Source: Streptomyces sp. B93 (lineage in GTDB: Bacteria; Actinomycetota; Actinomycetes; Streptomycetales; Streptomycetaceae). Taken from it: a DNA stretch of 64,000 bases. Below, piece by piece: positions 22,003 through 35,670 of this stretch. The DNA lies in contig NZ_JAGPXL010000038.1 of assembly GCF_018070565.1 (NCBI RefSeq), forward strand, positions 1-64,000, given 5' to 3'. The notes below the pieces were generated by a model. That model searched no databases. It was not told the DNA's origin and saw only the letters and a list, made by a program, of their open reading frames with translations. Both the position numbers and the translations under genes were made by a program. How positions within the stretch are numbered: position 1 is the stretch's first letter; each line of letters opens with the position of its first letter.

Positions 22003-23250
22003 TCAGGGCGACTCGGGCGCCGAGTGCCGGGTCTCGCGCGGGGGCGCGGAGGCGTCGTCGTCCGCCGTGGCCAGCCAGGTGCCGACGCCCGCCGCCGTAA
22101 CGAGGACCACGGCCGCCACGGTCAGCGTCACCCGGCGGCGCCGGGCCGCGACACGGTGCCGGGCCGAGCCGGGGCGGGGGGCACCGGCGGGGCGGGGGGC
22201 GCGGGCGGTGCCCCGGGCGCCCCCGGCCAGCTCGTCGGGGCCGGGGACCCTCATCGACGTATGGGTGTCACGGTTGGAGTCCGGCTTGGCGCCGGGGACC
22301 AGGGGGACCGCGCCGCGCCGTATCCGCGCCGGGGCCGGGGGCTCGCCCGGGGCCGTGACGGTGGCGGGCTCCTCGGCGTCGGGGTCGGTGTCGGCGTCCG
22401 GCTCGTCGACGTCCAGCGGCGGCAGCCCGGCCAGCAGCGGCAGCTGTTCCCGCAGCCGGGCGGCCAGCTCGGAGGCGCGCAGCCGGGACGCGGGCGCCTT
22501 GGCGAGGCACTGCACGAGCAGCTGCCACAGCTCCTCGGGGATGCCGGGCAGCGGGACGACGGTCTCGGTGACATGGCGGCGCAGTACGGCGCCGGGGTGG
22601 CCGCCGCCGAACGGGGTGAACCCGGCGAGCAGCTCGTAGAGGACGGTGGCCAGCGCGTAGATGTCGACGGAGGCGCGCGGCGGCAGGCCCTCCACGATCT
22701 CCGGGGCGAGGTAGTCCGGCGTGCCGATGATCTTCGTGGCGCGGGTCCGCTTCGGGGAGTCGATCAGCTTGGCCACGCCGAAGTCGGTGAGCAGCGCCCG
22801 GTGCGAGCCGCCGGGCCCGAGCGGGCCCTGCATGTCGAGCAGGATGTTCTCCGGCTTGACGTCCCGGTGCACGACCCCCTTCGCGTGCGCCGCGGCCAGC
22901 CCGTCCGCCACGTCGGCCACGATCGCCACCGCCGCCTCGGGCGCGAGCCGCCGTTCGCGCTCCAGCCGGGTGCGCAGATCGGTGCCGCGGACGAGGTCCA
23001 TGACGAGCGCGAGGTCGTTGCCGTCCACGACGAGGTCGCGGACGGAGACCACGTTCGGGTGGTCGAGGCCGAGCAGGGCCGTGCGCTCCTGGACGAAGCG
23101 TCCGACGAGTTCCTGGTCGGACGCGAGATCCTCGCGCAGCAGCTTGATGGCGACGGGTCCCTCGGGTCCCTCGCCCAGCCACACCGTGCCGGCGCTGCCC
23201 CGTCCCAGGATCTGGTTCGCGGTGTACCGGCTGCCGATCTTCCGTGCCAA
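22003..23250 (-). CDS. pkaB: Transmembrane Ser/Thr protein kinase, PkaB-like
   Basis: A 415-residue eukaryotic-type kinase. The catalytic domain (about 8-270) has the glycine loop LGRGSAGTV, ATP lysine Lys36, HRDVKPEN with catalytic Asp130, and DFG at 156-158. A proline- and acid-rich linker, a basic stretch, one membrane helix (about 375-393) and a short extracellular tail follow. The length matches PkaB of S. coelicolor (about 417). No PASTA repeats are present. It is encoded 204 bp downstream of pkaA, with an inverted-repeat element between them. Confidence 0.92.
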   Translation of the reverse strand: MARKIGSRYTANQILGRGSAGTVWLGEGPEGPVAIKLLREDLASDQELVGRFVQERTALLGLDHPNVVSVRDLVVDGNDLALVMDLVRGTDLRTRLERERRLAPEAAVAIVADVADGLAAAHAKGVVHRDVKPENILLDMQGPLGPGGSHRALLTDFGVAKLIDSPKRTRATKIIGTPDYLAPEIVEGLPPRASVDIYALATVLYELLAGFTPFGGGHPGAVLRRHVTETVVPLPGIPEELWQLLVQCLAKAPASRLRASELAARLREQLPLLAGLPPLDVDEPDADTDPDAEEPATVTAPGEPPAPARIRRGAVPLVPGAKPDSNRDTHTSMRVPGPDELAGGARGTARAPRPAGAPRPGSARHRVAARRRRVTLTVAAVVLVTAAGVGTWLATADDDASAPPRETRHSAPESP

Positions 23251-23360: not shown

Positions 23361-23458
23361 CTAGGGCCTGTCGTTGGGATCATGTCGGCGTCGCGGGGTC
23401 GGGTCGGCCGGAAAGCGCAGTCCGTTTCAGCCGACCTGATCCCAACGACAGGCCCTAG
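23361..23458. mobile_element. Putative 98-bp MITE between pkaA and pkaB
   Basis: Arms 23361-23389 and 23430-23458 are inverted repeats matching at 28 of 29 bases, separated by 40 bp. Both ends are CTAG, which fits a duplicated target of the YTAR type used by IS5-group elements, with inner ends GGCCTGTCGTTGGGATCA. The pkaA stop codon TAG (23457-23455, minus) is part of the right CTAG. The same structure could fold into a 29-bp hairpin and act as a terminator. No second copy is visible in this window. Confidence 0.55.
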
Positions 23459-25140
23459 CCCGACGAGCCGCCGCCCAGGTCCTCGATCCAGCCGGTCACG
23501 GTGGAGAACCAGTCGGTGAGCTGCTCCCAGTAGCCCTTGCCGGTGCCGATCCACTCCTGCAACGGGCTCAGCTCCCAGACCAGCCAGCCCGCCACGAACA
23601 GGATGACGACCGTGACCAGGCAGCCCTTCAGACAGCCGAGACCGGGGATCCGCATCGGGTTGGCGCTGCGCTGGCGGGGCTGGCGCGGCTCGCGCACCGG
23701 CCGCTGGGGCTGCTGCGGCTGGGGCGTGGGCGGCGGGGCGTACCGCTGGGGCTGCTGGGGCTGCGGAGTCGCGTAATGCTGGGGGCGCTGCTGCGGATAG
23801 CCGTAGCCGGGCGGCGGGCCCTGCGGCGGGCGCTGCTGCGGCTGGGGCCGCTGCGGGGCGCGCGGGGGCTGCTGGGGCGGCTGCTGCGGGCGGGCGACCT
23901 GCCGCTGGGGGCGGCGGCGCAGCGGGTCCTCGTCGGGGTCGAGGTACTGGATCTGGGTCTGCTCGTTGCGGTCGCGCGCGGCCCGCAGCTGGGTCTGCCA
24001 GGGGTGCGGCTGGTCGGGCCCCGGCCCGCCCTGCTGCCCCTGCGGGAGCACCTGCGTCGGGTCGGCGTTCGGGCCGCCCGGGGTGTGCGGCAGTACGGCG
24101 GTGGGGTCGGCGGCGCCCGCGGGGCCGCCGGTGTGCGGCAGCACGCTGGTCGCGGCGTTCGGGTCGTAGGCGCCCGCGCCGTGCGGCAGCACCTGTGTGG
24201 CGTCGGCGGCGCCGGGCACGGCCGTCGGGGACGGGTCGGGGGCGAGGAGCGCGCCGACGCCCTCGGCCGCGGCGATCTGCGCGGCGTTGGCGTGCACGCC
24301 AACGCCCTCGGCGACGACGCGCAGGCCGCGCGCGAGGTTCTCGGCGCTGGGGCGGTCGTCGGGGTTCTTGCGCAGGCAGCGCTCTATCACCGTCCACAGC
24401 GGCTCGGGCACGGTGGAGGGGCGGCGCGGCTCGGCGCTCAGGTGCTGGTGCAGGACCTCCAGGGCGGAGCTGCCGGAGAACGGCGGACGCCCGGTGACCA
24501 GCTCGTACAGCAGGATCCCGGCGCCGTAGATGTCGACGGCGGAGGTCTGCGGGCGGCCCTCGGCGGACTCCGGCGCGACGTACGCGGGCGTGCCGACGAA
24601 CTCCTGGGTGCGGGTCAGCCCCGGGGAGTCGGCGAGGCGGGCGATGCCGAAGTCGGTCAGCAGCGGGTGCATCTGGCCGCCGTTCTGCTGGAGCAGGACG
24701 TTGGCCGGCTTGAGGTCGCGGTGCACCACGCCGTCGGAGTGGCTGGCGGCGAGCGCGTCGGCGATCTGCGCGGTCATGAGGGCCGCGGCGACCGGGGTCA
24801 AGGGCCCGTTCTCGCGGAGGTAGCGGTGCAGGTCGGGGCCCTCGACGAGATCCATGACCAGGGCCAGCAGCTCGCCCTCCACGACCAGGTCACGGACCCG
24901 GACGATGTTCGGGTGGGTCAGGCGGAGCAGCACCGAGCGCTCCCGCAGGAACCGCATCACGATGTCCGGGTCGCTCGCCAGCTCCTCCTTGAGGACCTTG
25001 ATCGCGACGGTCTCGCCGGGCTGTCCGGGAACGGCTGCCTCGGCACCGGCGGTCTCACGCTGGCGGGCACGCCAGACGGTTCCCGTGGCACCGCGTCCGA
25101 GCGGCTCCTCGAGGAAGTACTTGCTGCCTACCGGCCGCAC
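23455..25140 (-). CDS. pkaA: Transmembrane Ser/Thr protein kinase, PkaA-like
   Basis: A 561-residue kinase. The catalytic domain (about 7-270) has LGRGATGTV, ATP lysine Lys48, HRDLKPAN and DFG. A long cytoplasmic linker follows, first with four T-x-V-L-P motifs (about 310-367), then a Gln/Pro-rich segment (about 400-490). One membrane helix near 508-530 leads to a roughly 30-residue Trp-rich extracellular tail. S. coelicolor PkaA is about 543 residues, so it is slightly long. Translation starts at the GTG at 25140. The T-x-V-L-P repeats are likely autophosphorylation and FHA docking sites; an FHA protein is encoded divergently next door. The stop codon lies inside the inverted-repeat element. 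Confidence 0.92.
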   Translation of the reverse strand: MRPVGSKYFLEEPLGRGATGTVWRARQRETAGAEAAVPGQPGETVAIKVLKEELASDPDIVMRFLRERSVLLRLTHPNIVRVRDLVVEGELLALVMDLVEGPDLHRYLRENGPLTPVAAALMTAQIADALAASHSDGVVHRDLKPANVLLQQNGGQMHPLLTDFGIARLADSPGLTRTQEFVGTPAYVAPESAEGRPQTSAVDIYGAGILLYELVTGRPPFSGSSALEVLHQHLSAEPRRPSTVPEPLWTVIERCLRKNPDDRPSAENLARGLRVVAEGVGVHANAAQIAAAEGVGALLAPDPSPTAVPGAADATQVLPHGAGAYDPNAATSVLPHTGGPAGAADPTAVLPHTPGGPNADPTQVLPQGQQGGPGPDQPHPWQTQLRAARDRNEQTQIQYLDPDEDPLRRRPQRQVARPQQPPQQPPRAPQRPQPQQRPPQGPPPGYGYPQQRPQHYATPQPQQPQRYAPPPTPQPQQPQRPVREPRQPRQRSANPMRIPGLGCLKGCLVTVVILFVAGWLVWELSPLQEWIGTGKGYWEQLTDWFSTVTGWIEDLGGGSSG

Positions 25141-25536
25141 GTCATGCGCTCCCTGCTGCTTGCGTGGTTGTTCCGGTCCACTGTAGTGGCGTGGCCGCCG
25201 CTACCCGCCGGTCCGCGGTCATACCGATTCGGTAGCTGGTTCCCGTACGCGTTTCGGTTCCCGAAGTTGTTCGGTTCCCGTACGTGTTCGAAGGAAAGAC
25301 GCTCGCCCCGGTCTCCCGGTTGCCCGACCCGGACGTGACCGATCTCAAGCCGTCGCCGCTGGGGCATTGTTCAGGCACTTTTGCGGGCAGAGCCGACCAA
25401 TCAAGATCACTTGCCGGTGGGCGGCGGGCGCGTTGTCAGTGGCAGGTGCGAGGATGCGTGCAGTACTGGCCGATGTGCTCGTGCGGGGTGGGGGGACGTC
25501 CATGCCCGCGCGGCGCGGAAGGGACCGCTGACGGCG
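25141..25536. promoter_or_regulatory. Divergent intergenic region pkaA / FHA-FtsK
   Basis: This 396-bp region separates two divergent genes. It has no convincing coding frame. It holds three tandem 17-18-bp repeats (25238-25290) and a relatively AT-rich patch at about 25370-25410 (TTGTTCAGGCACTTTTGCG and ACCAATCAAGATCACTT) that could contain the promoter for the rightward gene. Confidence 0.5.
25238..25290. repeat. Three tandem 17-18-bp repeats, GGTTCCCG-type
   Basis: Units start at 25238, 25256 and 25273. Each begins GGTTCCCG and ends near GTTTC or GTTC, with a variable centre (TACGC, AAGTT, TACGT). On the minus strand each shows CGGGAACC. The helical phasing (18 then 17 bp) and location suggest a cooperative regulator site. 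Confidence 0.75.
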
Positions 25537-28500
25537 ATGCAGATCCGGCTGACCGTCGTAGACCCGCAGGGGCCGCCCCCCGAGGCGCGGGGCCGTGCCG
25601 CGAGCTGCGACGTGCTGGTCACCGCGCCCGCCGGCACCGCCCTGGCCGCCGTGGCGTCCGCCCTCGCCGCGACGGTCTCCGACGGCCCCGCGGTGCTGTA
25701 CGCCGGTGCCGAGCGGCTCGACGCCCAGCGCCGCACCCTCGGCGAGCCGCCGCTGGTCGACGGCGCGGTGCTGGCGGTCGGCGCCCCCGCCGAGCCCGAG
25801 CCGCACCCCGAGATGGACGACGCCCCGGCCCGCCTCGACATCGTCGCGGGCCCCGACGCGGGCGGCGTCCACCTGCTGCACGGCGGCGAGGTCCGCATAG
25901 GCCGCTCGGCTGACGCCGACGTCCCCCTCGACGACCCCGACGTCTCCCGGCTGCACTGCGCCGTCACCCTCAGCGCCGACGGCCAGGTCACCGTCGCCGA
26001 CCTGAACTCCACCAACGGCACCACCCTGGACGGCACCCGCGTCACCACCCGCCCGGTCCGCTTCACCCCGGGCGCCCTCCTCAGGATCGGCGAGTCGACA
26101 CTCCGGCTCGCTCCCGCCGGGGGGCTGGGGGCGCGCGTGGGGACCGTGCCTGACGGGGAGGGGTGTGTGCGGGTGGCTGTTGGGGGGGATGGGGGGGCTT
26201 CCGTGGGCGCCGTGGCGGGCGGGCGGGACTCCGACGGGCGGAGGCCGGCCGGTGACGCCGGGTCGTCCGTCCAGGCGTCCGACGTGCGCGGGACCTCCCG
26301 GGGCTCGGGCAAGGGGAGCACTGGGGCATCCGGTGGCGCCGGAGCGCCCGACCAGGGGCCGGACACACGCGGAGCCTCCCCGGGCTCGGGCAGGGGGGGT
26401 ACGCAGGCGCCCGGTGACGCCGGGGTGCCCACCCAAGGGCCGGACACCCACGGAGCCGCCCCCGGCACCGGGCCGTCCACCACGGGCGCGGACACCCACG
26501 GAGCCTCCCGGGACGGCGGGACGTGGTCCCGGACCTCGGACACGCCCGCGCGCTCTCAGACCTCGGGCGCGCCCTCGCCCTCCCATGACGGCGCCGCGCG
26601 CTCTCAGACCTCGGGCACGTCCGCGCCCTCCCACGGCACCGGGACGGGCTTCCGGTCCTCAGGGGAACCCGCATCCTCCCGTGACGCCGCCACCCGTTCC
26701 CGGACCTCGGGCGCACCCGCGTCCCCCCGTGACGCCGGGACGCGCTCCCCCGCCACCGACGCCCCCGGCACCGGCACCGGAACACGCCCCCGCGCCTCCG
26801 ACGCGCCCGGCGAGCCGCCGATCAGTCACGGTCCCGTGGGGTGGGACACCGCCGGGGCACCGGTGGCGCAGGAGCATGATCGGGGCGAGGCGCCGGTGGT
26901 GCCGGGACAGGGCAGGGCACCCTGGGTCGAGAGCCGGGGCGAGGGGCCCGCGGGGCCGGGGTCCGGCGGCGACACGCACGCCGGACGCCAGGGCATAGGC
27001 CCGCTGGACCGCAACGCCCCCCACGAAGCCCACGAAGCCCACGACCCCCCGGTCGGCGGCCCGACGTCCAGCCGCAAGGGCACCCCCCTGCGCGGCACCG
27101 ACGTACCGCCCGGCGTGCGCAGGCGCGGCGGGATAGGCGCCTGGGCGCGGCGGCTGACCGGAGGCCGCGGCGGCGAGCAGGGCGGCGGCGTGGAGCACGA
27201 CGGCCGTGGCGCCGCGGCGGGCGCCCCGCCCACCGCCCCGTCGGCCGTCGCCACGCACCAGCCGGAGACCTGGCCGGACCCGGCGGCGCTGCTGCTGACC
27301 GCCCTGGGCCCCGGCCCCCGGCTGTGGGAGCGCGGGCCGGGCCACCCGGAGGCGCTCACCGTGCGGCTGGGCACCGCCGACCGGACGCTGCCGGACGGCT
27401 CCGGTCTGCTGCCCGCGGTGCCGGTGACGGCGGATCTGCGGGAGGCCGGTGCCCTGGGCCTGGCCGGGCCGCGCCCCCGGCTGGCCGGACTGGCGCGCGC
27501 GGTGCTCGCCCAGCTCGCCGCGCTGCACTCCCCGGACGCCCTGGAGATCGTCCTGATCAGCGCGGACCGCTCCCGCCCCGAGCCGGAGCGCACCGCCGAG
27601 TGGTCCTGGCTCGGCTGGCTCCCGCAGCTGCGGCCCGGGCACGGCCAGGACTGCCGTCTCCTCCTCGCCCATGACCGCGAGCAGGCCATGGCCCGCGCCG
27701 ACGAGCTGCTGCGCCGCCTGGACGACCACCTCACCACCGCCCCGGTGCCCGCCCCCCGGGCGGCCGACGCCACCGCCCGGCCCCGCCCGTCCTGGGCCCG
27801 GGAGGAGGACGCCCCGGACACCTTCGCCGGTCCGCACACGGTGGTCGTCGTCGACGGCGACCCCGGCGGCGCCGATCTGCGGGAGGCGATGACGCGGCTT
27901 GCGGTGGCCGGACCACGGGCCGGAATCCATGTGGTGTGCCTCGCCGAGACCCCGCCCGCCTCGCCGTCGTCACCGGTGACGGAGACGTACGAGGCGGCCT
28001 GCGCGGTGTCGCCGGTCTTCCGCGAGTGCGGGGCGGTCGCGCTGCTCAGCGGCGATGTGGCGACGGCGCTCCGGCTGCTGCGGGTGCCGCGCGCGAGCAC
28101 CGGCGCCGCCTCCGGCCCGGTCGGGCACGGCACGGTCGGCACGGTCGACGCGGTGTCCCTCGCCTGGGCGGAGCGCTTCGCGCGGGCGCTGGCCCCGCTG
28201 CGGCCGGACGGCCCGCCCGGTGAGCGGCACGCGCGCGTGTCGGCACCGCTGCCGCAGGCGGCCCGGCTCCTCGACGAGTTGGGCCTGGCCCGGGCCACCC
28301 CCGCGTCCCTGATGGCGCGGTGGGCGGACGCGGCCGACGACACGGACGCCCTCGGTGGCCGTGCCTGGGCGGTGCTCGGCGCCGGTCCGCGCGGCCCGGT
28401 CCACGCGGATCTCGTAAGTGACGGCCCGCATCTGCTGGTCGAGGGCCCGCCGGGCAGCGGTCGTACGGAGTCGCTGCGGGCGGTCGTGGCGTCGCTGGCC

Positions 28501-29433
28501 GCCGCCGAACGCCCCGACCGGCTCGGCGTCGTCCTGATCGACGGCCGGGACGGCGTGGGCACGGGCGCCGCCCACGGCGAGGGCCTGCGGGTGTGCGCGG
28601 ACGTCCCGCATGTGACGACGCACCTGACCGCCAACGACCCGGTGCGGATGCGGGAGTTCGCCCAGTCCCTGACCGCGGAGCTGAAGCGGCGCGCCGAGTT
28701 GCTGGGGCGCCTGGACTTCGCGGAGTGGCACGAGAGCCGCGCACTGTCCGGCCGTATGGTCGCGCAGCGCACGGCGACGGCGGGCGGCGCCGCACCGGTC
28801 CCGGCCCCCGCCCCCGCGGCCGGTGCCGGTGCCGGTGCCGGGGATCTCGACACCCCGCCCAGTTCGACGCTGCGGCTGCGGCCGGGCGGCGCCCGTCGGC
28901 GGGAGACGGCGGAGACTCCGCCGCTGCCGCGTCTCGTCGTGGTGGTGGACGACCTGGACGCGCTGGTGTCGCCCGCCCTGGGTTCGCCGGGGCGGCCCGC
29001 CGCCGGTTCGGTCGTGCGGGCGCTGGAGGCGGTGGCCCGGGAGGGCCAGCGGCTGGGCGTGCACCTGGTCGCGGCGACCGGGCCCTGTGCCCGTACGGCG
29101 GAGACGGAATTGGCGCGCCGGGCCACCCTCCGCGTGCTGCTCGACCCGCCCCCGGCCGGCCCGGACGAACCGGCGCCGGGACGCGGCCGTCTGGTCACCG
29201 CCGACGGCCGGGCCACGCCGTTCCAGGGCGGCCGGGTGACGGGCCGTATCCCCCGGACCGCGACCCTGCGCCCCACCGTCGTACCGCTGGAGTGGCAGCG
29301 CATGGGCGACCCGCCGACCCGGCGCCCGGTCCGTGAACTGGGCAACGGGCCCACGGACCTGGCCCTGCTGGCGAGCGCCCTGGAGCGGGCGGCCCGACAG
29401 GTGGCGGCGGCTGAGGTGCCGTCACTTCTCTAG
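25537..29433 (+). CDS. FHA domain - FtsK/SpoIIIE ATPase-like fusion protein
   Basis: A 1298-residue cytoplasmic protein. Residues 1-95 resemble the beta-rich N-terminal module of EssC-type secretion ATPases. A canonical FHA domain (about 100-185) has RIGRS, SRLHC and NSTNGT, the residues that read phosphothreonine. A roughly 390-residue low-complexity linker of degenerate Gly/Pro/Ser/Thr repeats follows (about 195-590). The C-terminal FtsK-like region has the P-loop GPPGSGRT near 970, with Arg where the Walker A Lys should be, and Walker B LVVVVDDLD. I chose the ATG at 25537 because GGAAGGGA precedes it and homology-like sequence starts there. It is divergent from pkaA, suggesting a kinase-reader pair. 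No T7SS genes are adjacent. Confidence 0.85.
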   Translation: MQIRLTVVDPQGPPPEARGRAASCDVLVTAPAGTALAAVASALAATVSDGPAVLYAGAERLDAQRRTLGEPPLVDGAVLAVGAPAEPEPHPEMDDAPARLDIVAGPDAGGVHLLHGGEVRIGRSADADVPLDDPDVSRLHCAVTLSADGQVTVADLNSTNGTTLDGTRVTTRPVRFTPGALLRIGESTLRLAPAGGLGARVGTVPDGEGCVRVAVGGDGGASVGAVAGGRDSDGRRPAGDAGSSVQASDVRGTSRGSGKGSTGASGGAGAPDQGPDTRGASPGSGRGGTQAPGDAGVPTQGPDTHGAAPGTGPSTTGADTHGASRDGGTWSRTSDTPARSQTSGAPSPSHDGAARSQTSGTSAPSHGTGTGFRSSGEPASSRDAATRSRTSGAPASPRDAGTRSPATDAPGTGTGTRPRASDAPGEPPISHGPVGWDTAGAPVAQEHDRGEAPVVPGQGRAPWVESRGEGPAGPGSGGDTHAGRQGIGPLDRNAPHEAHEAHDPPVGGPTSSRKGTPLRGTDVPPGVRRRGGIGAWARRLTGGRGGEQGGGVEHDGRGAAAGAPPTAPSAVATHQPETWPDPAALLLTALGPGPRLWERGPGHPEALTVRLGTADRTLPDGSGLLPAVPVTADLREAGALGLAGPRPRLAGLARAVLAQLAALHSPDALEIVLISADRSRPEPERTAEWSWLGWLPQLRPGHGQDCRLLLAHDREQAMARADELLRRLDDHLTTAPVPAPRAADATARPRPSWAREEDAPDTFAGPHTVVVVDGDPGGADLREAMTRLAVAGPRAGIHVVCLAETPPASPSSPVTETYEAACAVSPVFRECGAVALLSGDVATALRLLRVPRASTGAASGPVGHGTVGTVDAVSLAWAERFARALAPLRPDGPPGERHARVSAPLPQAARLLDELGLARATPASLMARWADAADDTDALGGRAWAVLGAGPRGPVHADLVSDGPHLLVEGPPGSGRTESLRAVVASLAAAERPDRLGVVLIDGRDGVGTGAAHGEGLRVCADVPHVTTHLTANDPVRMREFAQSLTAELKRRAELLGRLDFAEWHESRALSGRMVAQRTATAGGAAPVPAPAPAAGAGAGAGDLDTPPSSTLRLRPGGARRRETAETPPLPRLVVVVDDLDALVSPALGSPGRPAAGSVVRALEAVAREGQRLGVHLVAATGPCARTAETELARRATLRVLLDPPPAGPDEPAPGRGRLVTADGRATPFQGGRVTGRIPRTATLRPTVVPLEWQRMGDPPTRRPVRELGNGPTDLALLASALERAARQVAAAEVPSLL

Positions 29434-29596: not shown

Positions 29597-31018
29597 ATGC
29601 GCACCACGAGCAGCACCATCCGTACGATCAGCAGCCGCACCGGCAACCCCAACTCCATGAGACGGCGCCGCGGTTTCACGCGGGCCGCGGCCGCGCTCGC
29701 CGCCGGCACCCTAGCCCTCACCCTCACCGCCTGCGGCGGCGATGACGACGACGGCGGCGACGACAAGAGCACCGGCGCCGACGAGACCACCAACACCGTC
29801 ACCCTGCCCAAGCTGGACGGCGAGAGCCTGTCGGTCGCCGCGGTCTGGACCGGCGCGGAGCAGAAGAACTTCAAGGCGGTCCTGGACGAGTTCGAGAAAC
29901 GCACCGGCGCGGAGGTCACCTTCGTGCCCGCGCAGGACCCGATCATCAACTTCCTCGGTTCGAAGATCGCGGGCGGTCAGCCCCCGGACGTCGCGATGCT
30001 CCCGCAGCCCGGCGCCATCAAGCAGGCCGTGGAGAAGGGCTGGGCCACACCGCTCGGCGCCGAGGCGCAGGCGGAGCTGAGCAAGAACTACTCGCAGGGC
30101 TGGCAGGACATCGGCTCCGTCGACGGCAAGCCGTACGGCGTGTACTACAAGGCCGCCAACAAGTCGCTGATCTGGTACAACACCCAGGTCTTCGAGAACG
30201 CGGGCGCCTCGGAGCCGAAGACCTGGGACGAACTCCTCGACACCGCGCAGATGGTGTACGACTCCGGCGTCACCCCGTTCTCCATCGGCGGCGCCGACGG
30301 CTGGACCCTGACGGACTGGTTCGAGAACGTGTACCTCTCCCAGGCGGGCCCGGAGAAGTACGACCAGCTCGCGGCCCACGAGATCAAGTGGACGGACCCG
30401 TCGGTGGCGGAGGCGCTGACGACGCTCGCGGAGATATGGGGCAAGCAGGACTATGTCGCGGGCGGCGCGCAGGGCGCCCTCCAGACCGAGTTCCCGGCCT
30501 CCGTCACCCAGACGTTCACCGGCGGCGACCAGCCGAAGGCGGGCATGGTCTACGAGGGCGACTTCGTGCAGGTCAACATCGGTGAGACGAAGGCGAAGGT
30601 GGGCACGGACGCGAAGGTGTTCCCGTTCCCGGCGGTCGGTGACGAGGCGCCGGTGGTGTCCGGCGGTGACGCGGCGGTGATCCTGAAGGACTCCGAGGCC
30701 GCGCAGGCGCTGGCGACCTTCCTCGCCTCCCCGGACGCGGCGACCATCCACGCCGGACTCGGCGGCTACCTCTCGCCGAACAAGAACGTGGAGGCGTCGG
30801 CGTACCCGAACGAGGTCCAGCAGAAGATGGCCGAGGCGCTCGTCGCGGCCGGGGACGACTTCCGCTTCGACATGTCCGACCAGGCCCCGCAGGCCTTCGG
30901 CGGCACGCCCGGCAAGGGCGAGTGGAAGGCGTTGCAGGACTTCCTGAAGAACCCGAAGGACGTCGCGGGCGCCCAGCAGCGGCTGGAGGCCGACGCGGCG
31001 GCGGCGTACGGGAACTGA
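29597..31018 (+). CDS. Sugar ABC transporter substrate-binding lipoprotein
   Basis: A 473-residue extracellular solute-binding protein resembling alpha-glucoside (AglE) binding proteins. The lipobox LTLTAC gives a lipidated Cys46. The first 20 residues (Ser/Thr-rich) are unusually long for a signal peptide; an ATG at 29657 would give a normal n-region, MRRRRGF, but lacks a ribosome site, whereas GAACGGGG precedes 29597. Both starts remain possible. Motifs include KAVLDEFEKRTGAEVTFVP and SLIWYNTQVFENAG. It leads a three-gene importer without regulator or ATPase. Confidence 0.9.
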   Translation: MRTTSSTIRTISSRTGNPNSMRRRRGFTRAAAALAAGTLALTLTACGGDDDDGGDDKSTGADETTNTVTLPKLDGESLSVAAVWTGAEQKNFKAVLDEFEKRTGAEVTFVPAQDPIINFLGSKIAGGQPPDVAMLPQPGAIKQAVEKGWATPLGAEAQAELSKNYSQGWQDIGSVDGKPYGVYYKAANKSLIWYNTQVFENAGASEPKTWDELLDTAQMVYDSGVTPFSIGGADGWTLTDWFENVYLSQAGPEKYDQLAAHEIKWTDPSVAEALTTLAEIWGKQDYVAGGAQGALQTEFPASVTQTFTGGDQPKAGMVYEGDFVQVNIGETKAKVGTDAKVFPFPAVGDEAPVVSGGDAAVILKDSEAAQALATFLASPDAATIHAGLGGYLSPNKNVEASAYPNEVQQKMAEALVAAGDDFRFDMSDQAPQAFGGTPGKGEWKALQDFLKNPKDVAGAQQRLEADAAAAYGN

Positions 31019-31025
31019 GCCGACG

Positions 31026-32384
31026 ATGACGTCGTCGGCGCCGACGGCAGGGGTCCCGGAACCGAAGCAGTCCGGGACCCCTGCCCGTGAGAGAAAGAGC
31101 GTGACCGGCACCCGGGGGACCGTCGCGGCGCTGTTCCTGCTGCCCGCCCTGGTGCTGCTCGGCGCGCTCGTGGTCTACCCGATCGGGTACTCGGTCTTCC
31201 GCAGTTTCTTCGACCAGTCCGGCGACGGCTTCGCCGGGTTCGACAACTACGAGGCGCTGTTCACGGACGACGGCATCCGTACGGCGCTGAAGAACAACGT
31301 CATCTGGGTGGTGTTCGCGCCGACGGTCGCCACCGCGCTGGGTCTGATCTTCGCGGTGCTGACCGAACGGGTGCGCTGGGGCACGGCGTTCAAGCTGGTC
31401 GTCTTCATGCCGATGGCGATCTCGATGCTGGCGGCGGGCATCATCTTCCGCCTCGTCTACGACCAGGACCCGGACAAGGGCATCGCCAACGCGGTGTGGG
31501 TGGGCGTGCACGACACCTTCGCCCAGTCGTCGGCGTTCCCGAAGGCGCATCCGGGCCGGGAGTCGCCGCTCGAGGCGGCGGGCGGCGGCGCCTTCGTCAC
31601 CACGCAGCCGGTGCGCGCCGGGGAGCCGGTGACGCTGCCGCTGGTGGGTGTCGCCCCCGATCTGCTGCCCGACGACGCCAAGCCCGCGCGGCAGGCGTCG
31701 GCCGACCCGGGCAAGGTCACCGGCACCACCTGGCAGGACTTCACCCGCGGCAAGGGCGTCGGCACCCTCAACGCCCCGGACGCCTCGGAGCTGGGCTACC
31801 CGGGCATGCGGATCGAGGCGGTGAAGGACGGCAAGGTCGTCGCCTCCACGACGGCCGCCGACGACGGCACGTTCACGCTGCCCGCCGACGCCGACGGGGC
31901 CCTGCTGCGGCTGCCCGCGAGCAACTTCGAGGAGCCGTACAACGGTCTCGACTGGCTCGGCCCGTCGCTGGTGACCCCGGCCATCATCGGGTCGTACATC
32001 TGGATGTGGGCGGGCTTCGCGATGGTGCTGATCGCGGCCGGGCTCGCGGGTGTGCCCCGGGAGCTGCTGGAGGCGGCGCGCGTCGACGGCGCCAACGAGT
32101 GGCAGGTGTTCAGACGGGTCACCGTGCCGCTGCTCGCGCCCGTCCTCGCCGTCGTCACCGTCACCCTGATGATCAACGTGCTGAAGGTGTTCGACCTGGT
32201 CTTCATCATCGCCCCGGGCTCCTCCCAGGACGACGCCAACGTGCTCGCGCTGGAGCTGTACCGCAAGGGCTTCTCCGAGGACCAGCCGGGCATCGCCAGC
32301 GCCATCGCGGTGTTCCTGCTGCTCCTGGTGATCCCGGTGATGTGGTTCAACATCCGCAGGCTCAGGCGGGAGGTCAGGCGATGA
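31026..32384 (+). CDS. Sugar ABC permease with inserted extracellular domain
   Basis: A 452-residue MalF-type permease, about 130 residues longer than the first-cluster counterpart. Helices at about 32-57, 92-112 and 122-145 precede an extracellular insertion (about 152-308), and the EAA loop LLEAARVDGANEWQVF lies near 347-363. Within the insertion, residues 241-300 (GYPGMRIEAVKDGKVV, then DDGTFTLP) look like a carboxypeptidase-regulatory/transthyretin-type beta-sandwich. E. coli MalF has a functionally analogous P2 loop that touches the binding protein, but its fold differs. The gene starts seven bases after the binding-protein stop and overlaps the next permease by ATGA. Confidence 0.9.
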   Translation: MTSSAPTAGVPEPKQSGTPARERKSVTGTRGTVAALFLLPALVLLGALVVYPIGYSVFRSFFDQSGDGFAGFDNYEALFTDDGIRTALKNNVIWVVFAPTVATALGLIFAVLTERVRWGTAFKLVVFMPMAISMLAAGIIFRLVYDQDPDKGIANAVWVGVHDTFAQSSAFPKAHPGRESPLEAAGGGAFVTTQPVRAGEPVTLPLVGVAPDLLPDDAKPARQASADPGKVTGTTWQDFTRGKGVGTLNAPDASELGYPGMRIEAVKDGKVVASTTAADDGTFTLPADADGALLRLPASNFEEPYNGLDWLGPSLVTPAIIGSYIWMWAGFAMVLIAAGLAGVPRELLEAARVDGANEWQVFRRVTVPLLAPVLAVVTVTLMINVLKVFDLVFIIAPGSSQDDANVLALELYRKGFSEDQPGIASAIAVFLLLLVIPVMWFNIRRLRREVRR

Positions 32385-33295
32385 CGACGACGGACGCCCA
32401 GGGCGTCACCAAGACCGCCCCCGGGGGCGACGGGAGTCCGCGCCCGGAGTCGCTGGCGTCCCGGCTGGTCGCGGGTGTCAGCGGCGGGCTGGTACGGGTG
32501 TTCCTGATCGTCGTGGGCCTGTTCTGGCTGGTGCCGACGATCGGGCTGCTGCTGTCCTCGCTGCGCACCCCGGAGGACATGAACGCCAGCGGCTGGTGGA
32601 CGGTGTTCACGGAACCGGCCCAGCTGACCGTCGACAGCTACCGGACGCTGCTGGAGAACGACGACATCACCACCTCCCTGGTGAACACCGTCCTGATCAC
32701 GGTCCCGGCGACCGTCCTCGTCGTGGTGATCGGCGCGCTGGCGGGCTACGCCTTCGCGTGGATGGAGTTCCCGGGCCGCGACTGGTGGTTCCTCGCCGTC
32801 GTGGGGCTGCTGGTGGTACCGGTGCAGGTGGCGCTGATCCCGATCGCCGAACTCTTCGGCAACATCGGACTGTTCGGCTCCATCCTGGGCGTGGTCCTCT
32901 TCCACGTCGGCTTCGGTCTGCCGTTCGCGGTGTTCCTGCTGCGGAACTTCTTCGCGGAGATCCCGCGCGAGCTGCTGGAGGCCGCCCGCCTCGACGGGGC
33001 CGGTGAACTGCGGCTGTTCGCACGGGTCGTGATGCCGCTGGGCGGTCCGGCGATCGCGAGCCTGGGCATCTTCCAGTTCCTGTGGGTGTGGAACGACATG
33101 CTGGTCGCGCTGGTCTTCTCCGACGCGGGCAGCCAGCCGATCACGGTCGCCCTCCAGACGCAGGTGCGGCAGTTCGGCAACAACATCGACGTGCTGGCGC
33201 CGGGCGCGTTCATCTCGATGGTGATCCCGCTGGTGGTGTTCTTCGCGTTCCAGCGGCAGTTCGTGTCGGGTGTGATGGCGGGTGCGGTGAAGTAG
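32381..33295 (+). CDS. Sugar ABC transporter permease (MalG-type)
   Basis: A 304-residue permease with six helices after a roughly 35-residue polar N-terminus. The EAA loop is ELLEAARLDGAGELRLFARVV. The C-terminal FQRQFVSGVMAGAVK is typical. The start overlaps the preceding permease stop by four bases. A GC-rich hairpin at 33314 ends the operon. As in the first importer, an external ATPase is required. Confidence 0.92.
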   Translation: MTTTDAQGVTKTAPGGDGSPRPESLASRLVAGVSGGLVRVFLIVVGLFWLVPTIGLLLSSLRTPEDMNASGWWTVFTEPAQLTVDSYRTLLENDDITTSLVNTVLITVPATVLVVVIGALAGYAFAWMEFPGRDWWFLAVVGLLVVPVQVALIPIAELFGNIGLFGSILGVVLFHVGFGLPFAVFLLRNFFAEIPRELLEAARLDGAGELRLFARVVMPLGGPAIASLGIFQFLWVWNDMLVALVFSDAGSQPITVALQTQVRQFGNNIDVLAPGAFISMVIPLVVFFAFQRQFVSGVMAGAVK

Positions 33296-33313
33296 CCGTA
33301 CGCGTGCGGCGGC

Positions 33314-33340
33314 GGGGGCGGGCCTTCACGGTCCGCCCCC
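33314..33340 (+). terminator. Terminator of the second sugar ABC operon
   Basis: GGGGGCGG (33314-33321) pairs with CCGCCCCC (33333-33340) around an 11-base loop, 19 bp after the last permease stop. Confidence 0.65.
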
Positions 33341-33450
33341 GGGCGTTCGGGCGTTCCCCCGGCGTTCCCCCACATGGCGCACACGGCGTAACCCGGTCGG
33401 CGTACCGGGCGTTCCCGGGCAGAACGCCCGCGCCGACCCATGGATGTCCC

Positions 33451-35659
33451 GTGCCCAGGTTCAGTGTCATCGTCCCCGCGTTTCAGGTTCAGGCGTACCT
33501 CACCGAGTGTGTGGAGTCCGTGCTCTCCCAGTCCTGCTCCGACCTCGAACTGATCGTCGTCGACGACTGCTCACCGGACGCGTGCGGAGACCTCGTCGAC
33601 GAGTTCGCGGCCCGCGACCCCCGTGTCCGCCCCGTCCACCTGCCCGAGCACTCCGGCCCCGGCCCTGCCCGCAATGTCGCCCTCGCCCTGGCGAGGGGCG
33701 ACCACCTGCTGTTCCTGGACGGCGACGACGTCCTCGTCCCGGGCGCCCTGCGCGCCGTCGCCGACCGGCTGAAGGAGACCGGCGAGCCTGATCTGCTGGT
33801 CTTCGGCGCCACGACGGCCGACTGGCGTGGCGAGCCGGTCGCCGACGCCCCCGGCGGGACCTCCTGGTCCGGCTGGAACCGGGCCTACCGGCGGGAGTTC
33901 GTCCAACGCGAGGGCCTGACCTTCCCGCCGGGACGGCACGAGGGGCTGCCGTGGGCGGCGGCGGCCCTGCTGACGGCCGGGTCGGCGGCGACGCTGGACC
34001 GGGTGTGCGTACGGCGCCGGGCGCCGCTGCCGTCGGCTCCCTCGGAGTGGACCGCCGAGGACGTCGCGGACCTCTTCGAGCAGTACGACCGCGTCTTCGC
34101 GTTCGTCGGCACGCGACCCGGCCTCGCGGACCGGCGGCCCTGGCTGTACCGCCGGATGGTGGAGCACCTGGCGCAGGTGTGCGGCGCACCGGGGCCGCTG
34201 CCGCGCGGCGCGCGCGCCGCCTTCCTGCGCCGGGCCCGCGCCCACTGCCGCCGCCACTACGCGCCGGGCGCCCCGGCGCCGTTGCGCGCCCGGTTCCGGC
34301 ACGCCCTGGTGCGCCACGGCGCCCACCGTGTGCTGCGCGCGCTGCTGCTGACCGCCGCCCTGCGCCGCCGTACCGCCCGCCGTGCCCTACGGCTGGCCCG
34401 CGCCCTGCGCTCGGCCGCCCTGCGGCTGCACTACCGCGTCCAGCGGTGCCTGCCCCTGCGCGCCGACCGCGCGGTGTTCGCGGCGTCCTGGGGGCACGGC
34501 GGCTACGGCTGCCACCCGGCGGCGCTGGAGGAGGCGTTCCGCACGCACGCCCCGCACGTCCGCACGGCGTGGGTCGCCCGACCCGAGCAGCACCACACCC
34601 TGCCGACGGCGACCCGTCGGCTGACACCGGGCACGGCCGCGTACTGGACGGCGCTCGCCCGCTCCACGTACCTCGTCGACAACACCGGCTTCGACCGCCG
34701 CCTGGTCAAACGCCCGGGTCAGGTCCTCATCCAGACGCAGCACGGCACACCGCTGAAGCACATGGGCCTCGACCTCCAGGAACGCCCGGCCGCCGCCCGC
34801 GGCACGGACTTCGCCGAGCTGGTCAGGGACTGCGCGCGGTGGGACCACGTCGTCTCCGGCAACCGTCTGTCCACCCTCACCTGGGAACGCGTCCACCCCG
34901 GCGGCTGGACCACCCTGGAGTACGGTTCCCCGCGCAACGACGTCCTCCAGCGGGCGAGCGCGGCTGACGTGGCCCGGCTGCGCGAGTGCCTCGGCGTCCC
35001 CCGCGGCACGGTCGCCATCCTCTACGCGCCCACCTACCGCGACCACCGGCGCACCCAGCAGCCGGTCCTGGACCTCGACCGGGTCGCCCGCCGGCTGGGT
35101 CCGCGCTTCGTGATCCTGGCCCGCGCCCACCACCGCCACGGTGGCCCCCTCACGGAGACCGCCGACGGCCGGGTGATCGACGTGACCGGGCATCCGCGCG
35201 TCGAGTCGCTGTGCCTGGCCGCGGACGCCCTGGTCACCGACTACTCGTCGATCATGTTCGACTACGCCGGTCTGGACCGCCCGATCGTCCTGCACCTCCC
35301 CGACCGGGAGGCCTTCGAGGCGGCCCGCGGCACCTACTTCGACCTGCGTTCCTTCCCGCCGGGCGCGCTGGCCCGCACCGAGGACGAGCTGATCGACATC
35401 TTCGCCACGGGCCACTGGCACGGCTCCCGCTCCACCCAGCTGCGGTCGGCGTTCAGGGCGCGGTTCTGTCCGTACGACGACGGGCACGCCGCCGAGCGGG
35501 TGGTACGCCGCGTGGTGCTGGGACAGCGGGACGAGACGCAGGGGCTGCCCGCCGTCGTACCGCTGGCGGAGCGCCGTCCGGTGCCGTCGGCGGTCTCGGC
35601 TCCCGGCCCGGGGCCACTGCCCGGCGGTACGGGACGGGTCCGGCCGCCCTCCGTGAGGG

Positions 35660-35670
<11 letters not shown>
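33451..35670 (+). CDS. Bifunctional GT2 glycosyltransferase / CDP-glycerol glycerophosphotransferase (TagF-like)
   Basis: A 739-residue protein with two enzymes. The N-terminal GT2 domain (about 1-220) has FSVIVPAFQVQAYL, LIVVDDCSPDAC and LFLDGDD. An Arg/Ala-rich linker (about 250-340) follows. The C-terminal domain (about 345-690) has TagF-type motifs: TQHGTPLKHMG, YAPTYRDH, and DALVTDYSSIMFDYAGLDRPIV. TagF enzymes add glycerol-phosphate from CDP-glycerol to teichoic-acid chains on the cytoplasmic face of the membrane. The GTG at 33451 starts exactly at the GT2 fold; its ribosome site is weak. The gene ends convergently with ohr, overlapping by 11 bp. The GalE and exporter genes nearby support a teichoic-acid role. 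Confidence 0.88.

Follow-up and report, generated by a model that had tools for sequence, protein, structure and literature searches.

An FHA- and EccC-like protein with an arginine P-loop encoded beside the PkaA and PkaB kinases of Streptomyces: a candidate phosphothreonine-reading scaffold

The 64,000-nucleotide stretch of Streptomyces sp. B93 analyzed here (contig NZ_JAGPXL010000038.1, positions 1 to 64,000; hereafter the window) encodes a 1298-residue protein that joins an FHA domain to an ATPase core resembling EccC, the ATPase of type VII secretion. Its P-loop has arginine where the Walker A lysine is expected. The gene lies back to back with a gene for a PkaA-like Ser/Thr kinase, and a PkaB-like kinase gene follows. 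What does a secretion-type ATPase do beside two kinases, and does it still act as a motor? An earlier, sequence-only reading of the gene had suggested a degenerate ATPase used as a phospho-dependent scaffold. Here we follow up that proposal and add three elements that it lacked: the pairing with the kinases, the phylogeny of the P-loop and a second ATPase-like domain in the core.

Results

Architecture of the protein

The gene and the features of its product are as follows.

25537..29433, + strand: gene for the FHA/EccC-like putative pseudo-ATPase, 1298 residues; counterpart of Streptomyces coelicolor SCO2975 by position
25537..25800, + strand: N-terminal beta-grasp-like domain, residues 1-88 (strand-strand-helix-strand-strand-strand); a low-confidence AlphaFold fold, with a predicted local distance difference test score (pLDDT) of about 45-70
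25825..26121, + strand: FHA domain, residues 97-195, with invariant GR / SR.H / NG phosphothreonine-binding residues (Pfam, alignment, fold match)
26122..27261, + strand: low-complexity linker of 380 residues (196-575), rich in G/A/P/S/T, length not conserved
27262..28206, + strand: EccC-type domain of unknown function (DUF), core residues 1-315, with a degenerate ATPase fold (EccC5 DUF, 7b9s/8rin, matched by VIA-align at Z about 22; TIGR03924)
28210..29430, + strand: single FtsK/EccC-type ATPase domain (Z 25-27 to 4lya, 4n1a and 6t8b; PF01580)
28444..28467, + strand: degenerate Walker A motif GPPGSGRT, residues 970-977 (sequence and family tally)
28936..28965, + strand: Walker B motif VVVVDDLDAL, with Asp in place of the catalytic Glu (sequence, family tally, EccC control)
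29341..29382, + strand: C-terminal motif GNGPTDLALLASAL, in which GPTDL is invariant across the family

The open reading frame is real: its start, MQIRLTV, is kept among orthologues. We also considered a pseudogene and ruled it out, as the frame is intact and the core is conserved among nearly all orthologues. An antisense open reading frame of 842 residues (26826-29354, - strand) overlaps the gene; we take it to be a mechanical product of high GC content. In one other genome (G010, L055:9001-10903) a frame change breaks the gene between core residues 469 and 554.

Pfam places FHA (PF00498) at residues 119-185 (E 2e-17) and FtsK_SpoIIIE (PF01580) at residues 953-1182 (E 1e-15). The FHA domain has the full set of phosphothreonine-binding residues. 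G122, R123, S137, R138, H140, N160 and G161, which supply the conserved GR, S..H and NG residues, do not vary between Streptomyces and Streptosporangiales, and a model of the N-terminal 196 residues has the FHA fold, with Z up to 13.5, and about 13 to phosphothreonine-binding FHA domains. The linker that follows is disordered and ranges from 99 to 1150 residues across orthologues. It had been described as a repeat linker of roughly 390 residues; the low-complexity linker is there, at 380 residues, but its tandem repeats are only partial (81 bp x 2.2 and 27 bp x 3.9).

The 723-residue core was modelled with AlphaFold together with 32 family sequences (mean pLDDT 79). Model residues 317-723 match the ATPase domains of EssC, EccC and FtsK (Z 24-27). 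The earlier description of a single FtsK core holds in that there is one FtsK domain; it missed the EccC-type DUF that precedes it, itself a degenerate ATPase fold. By structure match the core thus has the DUF plus FtsK-type ATPase arrangement of EccC/EccCa. Against NCBIfam TIGR03924 (EccCa), residues 624-1060 align to positions 178-541 with 140.7 bits, whereas the cut-off is 509.15; because the score falls below that cut-off, the core is EccC-like yet not EccC. No transmembrane segment is apparent in the whole protein, nor any before the DUF, since the best 19-residue hydropathy window scores 1.8 and lies in the N-terminal domain (residues 26-44). The label 'EssC-like' should be revised: the core is closest to actinobacterial EccCa, transmembrane helices and the second and third ATPase domains (D2/D3) are absent, and the FHA domain differs from those of EssC in having the phosphothreonine-binding residues.

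A derived arginine in the P-loop

The sequence-only reading had singled out the arginine of GPPGSGRT, and the family bears it out. At the Walker A lysine site, 133 orthologues have Arg in 81 cases, Lys in 45 and Val in 7, with nothing else. Lys is over-represented in these counts because the 80 named loci among them were chosen in order of similarity to a query that itself has Lys. Within the main Streptomyces clade, Arg is found in 77/77 sequences at 75% mean identity. Among the 80 named loci, this clade's Arg is encoded by CGT, CGC and CGG.

Where does lysine survive? Among the first 41 genomes, nearly all Streptomyces orthologues had Arg and those of Streptosporangiales had Val; in a sample from the same family, most sister genera carried Lys. 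A 55-row tree has Lys retained by the sister genera and two early-branching Streptomyces. It puts one origin of Arg on the branch leading to all other Streptomyces and another in genus g8, with Val as a trait of Streptosporangiales. In the scan of named species, the Lys-bearing Streptomyces comprise a Streptoverticillium-type group that includes S. cinnamoneus, S. abikoensis and S. mashuensis, together with S. pathocidini and further species (S. chattanoogensis, S. sioyaensis, S. niger and S. violens). In the 133-row tree, made without the P-loop columns, Lys changed to Arg on three separate occasions and Val arose once. One of the Arg gains is an AAG-to-AGG change in Streptomyces sp. I05A-00742. 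As read from these trees, Lys is ancestral and persists in sister lineages, whereas Arg is derived and has become fixed.

Could the arginine be a sequencing error or a mutation private to this strain? Lys-bearing orthologues do exist, and the earlier reading had held that they would point that way; they point to the ancestral state instead. Arg is shared by 81 orthologues from many assemblies, which refutes an error, and we give this explanation practically no weight.

Loss of the Walker B glutamate

Walker B had been called intact. VVVVD is indeed present, but where EccC has its catalytic Glu (DE) this protein has Asp (DD). In place of the signature of the first EccC ATPase domain (D1), GxxGxGK[S/T] with hhhhDE, the window thus has GPPGSGRT and VVVVDD. 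Of the 132 family rows with a residue at the position of the second acid, 126 have D, 5 have N and 1 has G; none has Glu. Streptosporangiales have DN or DG. As a control, we read D1 of EccC in genomes belonging to the same group: Lys is present in 30/30 and DE in 30/30. In the Arg clade, then, both catalytic residues are replaced and fixed. Since Lys-bearing members also lack the Glu, its loss probably preceded that of the Lys. Motor activity would have been lost in descent from an EccC-like ancestor, a loss that looks complete in Streptosporangiales, with Val and DN/DG. Degenerate ATPase domains are found in EccC itself: the DUF of EccC5 is one and does not bind ATP, and D2/D3 are poor as well (PMC11154593). 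One ATPase-like domain is accordingly degenerate in EccC too, and the protein described here would have a second in the course of degenerating.

Two other accounts of these substitutions bear weighing. The first is a slow but working motor, in which Arg functionally replaces Lys, the Pro after the first Gly compensates and hydrolysis is gated by binding of the FHA domain to the kinases. Much of the P-loop is kept: the first Gly, the Gly preceding the Lys/Arg site and the S/T are each present in 133/133. Throughout the main clade (77/77) that Pro accompanies Arg, which could reflect a retuned loop, and 45 orthologues retain Lys. Set against this are the catalytic Glu missing throughout the family, the middle Gly replaced by A or S in some Arg and some Lys members, and the Val with DN/DG of Streptosporangiales. 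Moreover, a Walker A Lys-to-Arg change usually blocks hydrolysis in RecA-fold ATPases. We regard a slow motor as unlikely, though it is an alternative to be taken seriously.

The second account makes the arginine a passive relic: the ATPase part decays, and only the FHA domain matters, for kinase docking or as a decoy. The P-loop and Walker B are both degenerate and the linker drifts freely, as decay would have it. A decaying domain would look different in other respects, however. Arg is invariant in the 77 sequences of the main clade and no third residue occurs at the Lys/Arg site in Streptomycetaceae; the DUF and ATPase domains are 46-82% identical to the window protein across Streptomycetaceae, and GPTDL is invariant. 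This account seems to us improbable. The C-terminal GPTDL motif (29341-29382) is better conserved than the P-loop.

An invariant pairing with kinases

Upstream of the gene, on the other strand, lie the two kinases.

23455..25140, - strand: PkaA-like Ser/Thr kinase, divergent neighbour, with a C-terminal membrane anchor (PF00069, E 4e-54)
24046..24198, - strand: four T-x-V-L sites in the PkaA tail, proposed FHA ligands (24187-24198, 24139-24150, 24091-24102 and 24046-24057)
23953..23964, - strand: EQTQ site in the PkaA tail ([E/D]QTQ in 85/90 PkaA tails)
22003..23250, - strand: PkaB-like Ser/Thr kinase with a tail anchor (PF00069, E 6e-48)
22252..22266, - strand: THTSM(R) motif in the PkaB tail, a candidate phosphosite (THTSMR in 87/88 PkaB tails)

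A PkaA-like kinase is the divergent neighbour of the FHA gene in 92/92 loci where both genes are readable. Beyond pkaA come pkaB and prfB wherever the contig reaches, Streptosporangiales included. In the window, prfB is followed by ftsE, ftsX, a gene for a C-terminal processing peptidase and smpB, beyond both kinases and on the other strand.

The PkaA tails typically carry three or four T-x-V-L/M sites. T-x-V-[LMI] occurs on average 3.08 times per PkaA tail against 0.026 in shuffled tails (118-fold), and 0.03 times per PkaB tail. FHA domains prefer a phosphothreonine that is followed by a hydrophobic residue at +3; T-x-V-L resembles an FHA ligand because it supplies that residue. From their sequence, the T-x-V-L/M sites of PkaA are candidate ligands that may be phosphorylated and bound by the FHA domain. 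PkaB of S. coelicolor (SCO2973) is tail-anchored in the membrane (PMC3087755). The juxtamembrane THTSMR of the PkaB family is nearly invariant within an otherwise drifting tail. In another genome (G005, L054:2825-4068) the PkaB gene is split across two reading frames, by a frameshift or an assembly error.

Downstream, a sugar ABC transporter binding protein and permease (29600-32384, + strand) directly follow the FHA gene. Where the flank is long enough, the binding-protein gene adjoins it in nearly all Streptomyces loci; it was not found in Streptosporangiales. Shortly beyond is a glycosyltransferase family 2 domain fused to a CDP-glycerol glycerophosphotransferase of the teichoic-acid type (33082-35670, + strand).

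Sigma-E-like sites between the divergent genes

Two elements lie in the intergenic region.

25297..25321, - strand: sigma-E-like promoter toward pkaA, AAC-N17-CGTCT, conserved in relatives (sigma-E regulon, PMC6767563)
25334..25349, + strand: 16 bases identical to the published sigma-E site upstream of sco2975 (comparison with PMC6767563)

The site toward pkaA is present in 88/92 intergenic regions, against 2.8% of shuffles. The published sigma-E regulon of S. coelicolor (PMC6767563) includes both pkaA and sco2975. In that species the gene order is the same by name and position: PkaB is SCO2973, PkaA is SCO2974 and SCO2975 is a 'hypothetical protein'. No analysis of the function or domains of SCO2975 was found in the papers searched.

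Separation from type VII secretion

The earlier statement that no secretion genes lie nearby stands. All WXG100 genes of the genome and its EccB gene are on another contig (C89) from the one that carries the FHA gene (C67). In the loci read, no linkage to esx, EccB or EccD genes was seen, and the neighbours are kinases. EccB has no match in three genomes of 93-99% completeness that bear the gene, G009 (a single contig, 99% complete), G010 and G011, and EccC D1 at 1e-60 has none in G010 and G011. A type VII secretion component was tried as the primary reading and rejected: esx linkage and transmembrane helices are lacking, the score is below the cut-off, and the gene is present without EccB.

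There is also a weaker form of the secretion idea, in which the soluble DUF-FtsK unit is a phospho-controlled modulator that joins or blocks a true EccC ring whose gene lies elsewhere in the genome. The homology of the core to EccCa and the fold matches would suit it, as would the ESX locus on C89 of this genome. The subthreshold score, the linkage to kinases instead of esx genes and the genomes that carry the gene without an EccB match, two of them also without EccC D1, all speak against it. We consider it a poor candidate.

Discussion

On balance, and with little to spare, we think it probable that the protein is a phosphothreonine-reading pseudo-ATPase scaffold of a PkaA/PkaB kinase module, acting in envelope-stress signaling and not as a secretion ATPase. 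The scaffold proposed by the sequence-only reading is partly supported and is the best reading of the family data. It is much strengthened by the clade-wide Arg, the Walker B Glu-to-Asp change, the intact FHA domain, the invariant pairing with kinases and the FHA-ligand-like sites in the PkaA tail.

How might such a scaffold work? Envelope stress would induce pkaA through sigma-E, given the target status in S. coelicolor and the promoter conserved here. Membrane-anchored PkaA would autophosphorylate its cytoplasmic tail at the T-x-V-L/M repeats, and PkaB might be phosphorylated at THTSMR. The FHA domain would bind the phosphorylated tail sites, taking the protein to the membrane, and several sites together with the long flexible linker would permit clusters. 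The DUF and FtsK unit may form a ring like those of its relatives, with weak or static nucleotide binding; we propose no turnover because Arg stands in the position of the Lys and Asp in that of the catalytic Glu. The invariant GPTDL segment at the C-terminus may be presented to a partner as output.

Several points weigh against the scaffold. Slow hydrolysis is possible with Arg, and Asp sometimes substitutes for the Glu. In 45 orthologues Lys and a complete-looking P-loop are retained, so the loss of the motor is not universal. In Streptosporangiales the T-x-V-L sites of the PkaA tails are absent or weaker, though the FHA domain and the synteny persist. Binding of PkaA peptides by the FHA domain, binding of nucleotide and loss of hydrolysis are all inferred from sequence. 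Finally, the published sigma-E site at sco2975 is weak (PMC6767563).

A bolder version goes further: a secretion-type ring motor was recruited to Ser/Thr kinase signaling and repeatedly disarmed, by at least three changes of Lys to Arg and one to Val. It would have become an ATP-locked FHA scaffold that, under envelope stress in Streptomyces, gathers membrane-anchored kinases phosphorylated at several sites into clusters. This we offer tentatively, as a possibility that is more likely wrong than right; if true, a signaling assembly like a receptor cluster has been made from a type VII secretion ATPase.

PkaA and PkaB are known by name as Ser/Thr kinases of Streptomyces, and no readout of either was found in the papers searched. 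A strictly linked FHA partner with candidate docking sites is a testable downstream component for these kinases, one with a tie to the sigma-E response to envelope stress. The family also offers, within a single orthologous protein, P-loops with Lys, Arg or Val, a natural series for following the transition from motor to pseudo-ATPase. A literature search found no Lys-to-Arg pseudo-ATPases of the FtsK kind, and in the papers searched we found no description of the strict PkaA/PkaB linkage, the domain combination or the repeated loss of Lys. The EccC fold, FHA domains and the kinases are each known singly.

Among known systems, EccC/EccCa (Thermomonospora curvata EccC, 4nh0; Mycobacterium tuberculosis EccC5, 7b9f, 7np7 and 8rin) likewise has an FtsK-type ATPase domain after a DUF. 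In EccC5 the third ATPase domain, too, carries Arg in place of the P-loop Lys (GRRECGRTT), a precedent within a degenerate EccC domain; in the protein described here, by contrast, the degenerate domain is the one equivalent to the catalytic D1. It further differs from EccC in lacking transmembrane helices, D2/D3 and esx neighbours, and in having an FHA domain and a long linker. EssC/YukBA of the Firmicutes type VIIb secretion system (T7SSb) likewise has N-terminal FHA modules and C-terminal FtsK-type domains. EssC has two FHA domains without the phosphothreonine-binding residues, two transmembrane helices and three ATPase domains (PMC4925161), whereas our protein has one FHA domain with all the binding residues, one FtsK domain with a DUF and no transmembrane segment.

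Comparable kinase-FHA pairs are PknB with GarA and, in M. tuberculosis, PknF with Rv1747, which is the nearest working analogy. Rv1747 likewise combines FHA, a disordered linker and an ATPase domain with a Ser/Thr kinase partner, and phosphorylation-driven clustering with PknF has been reported (PMC9312465). Rv1747 is, however, an ATP-binding cassette (ABC) exporter: its ATPase is of the ABC type and it carries two FHA domains, whereas the ATPase here is a degenerate one of the EccC/FtsK kind, and the multiple candidate sites sit in the tail of the kinase.

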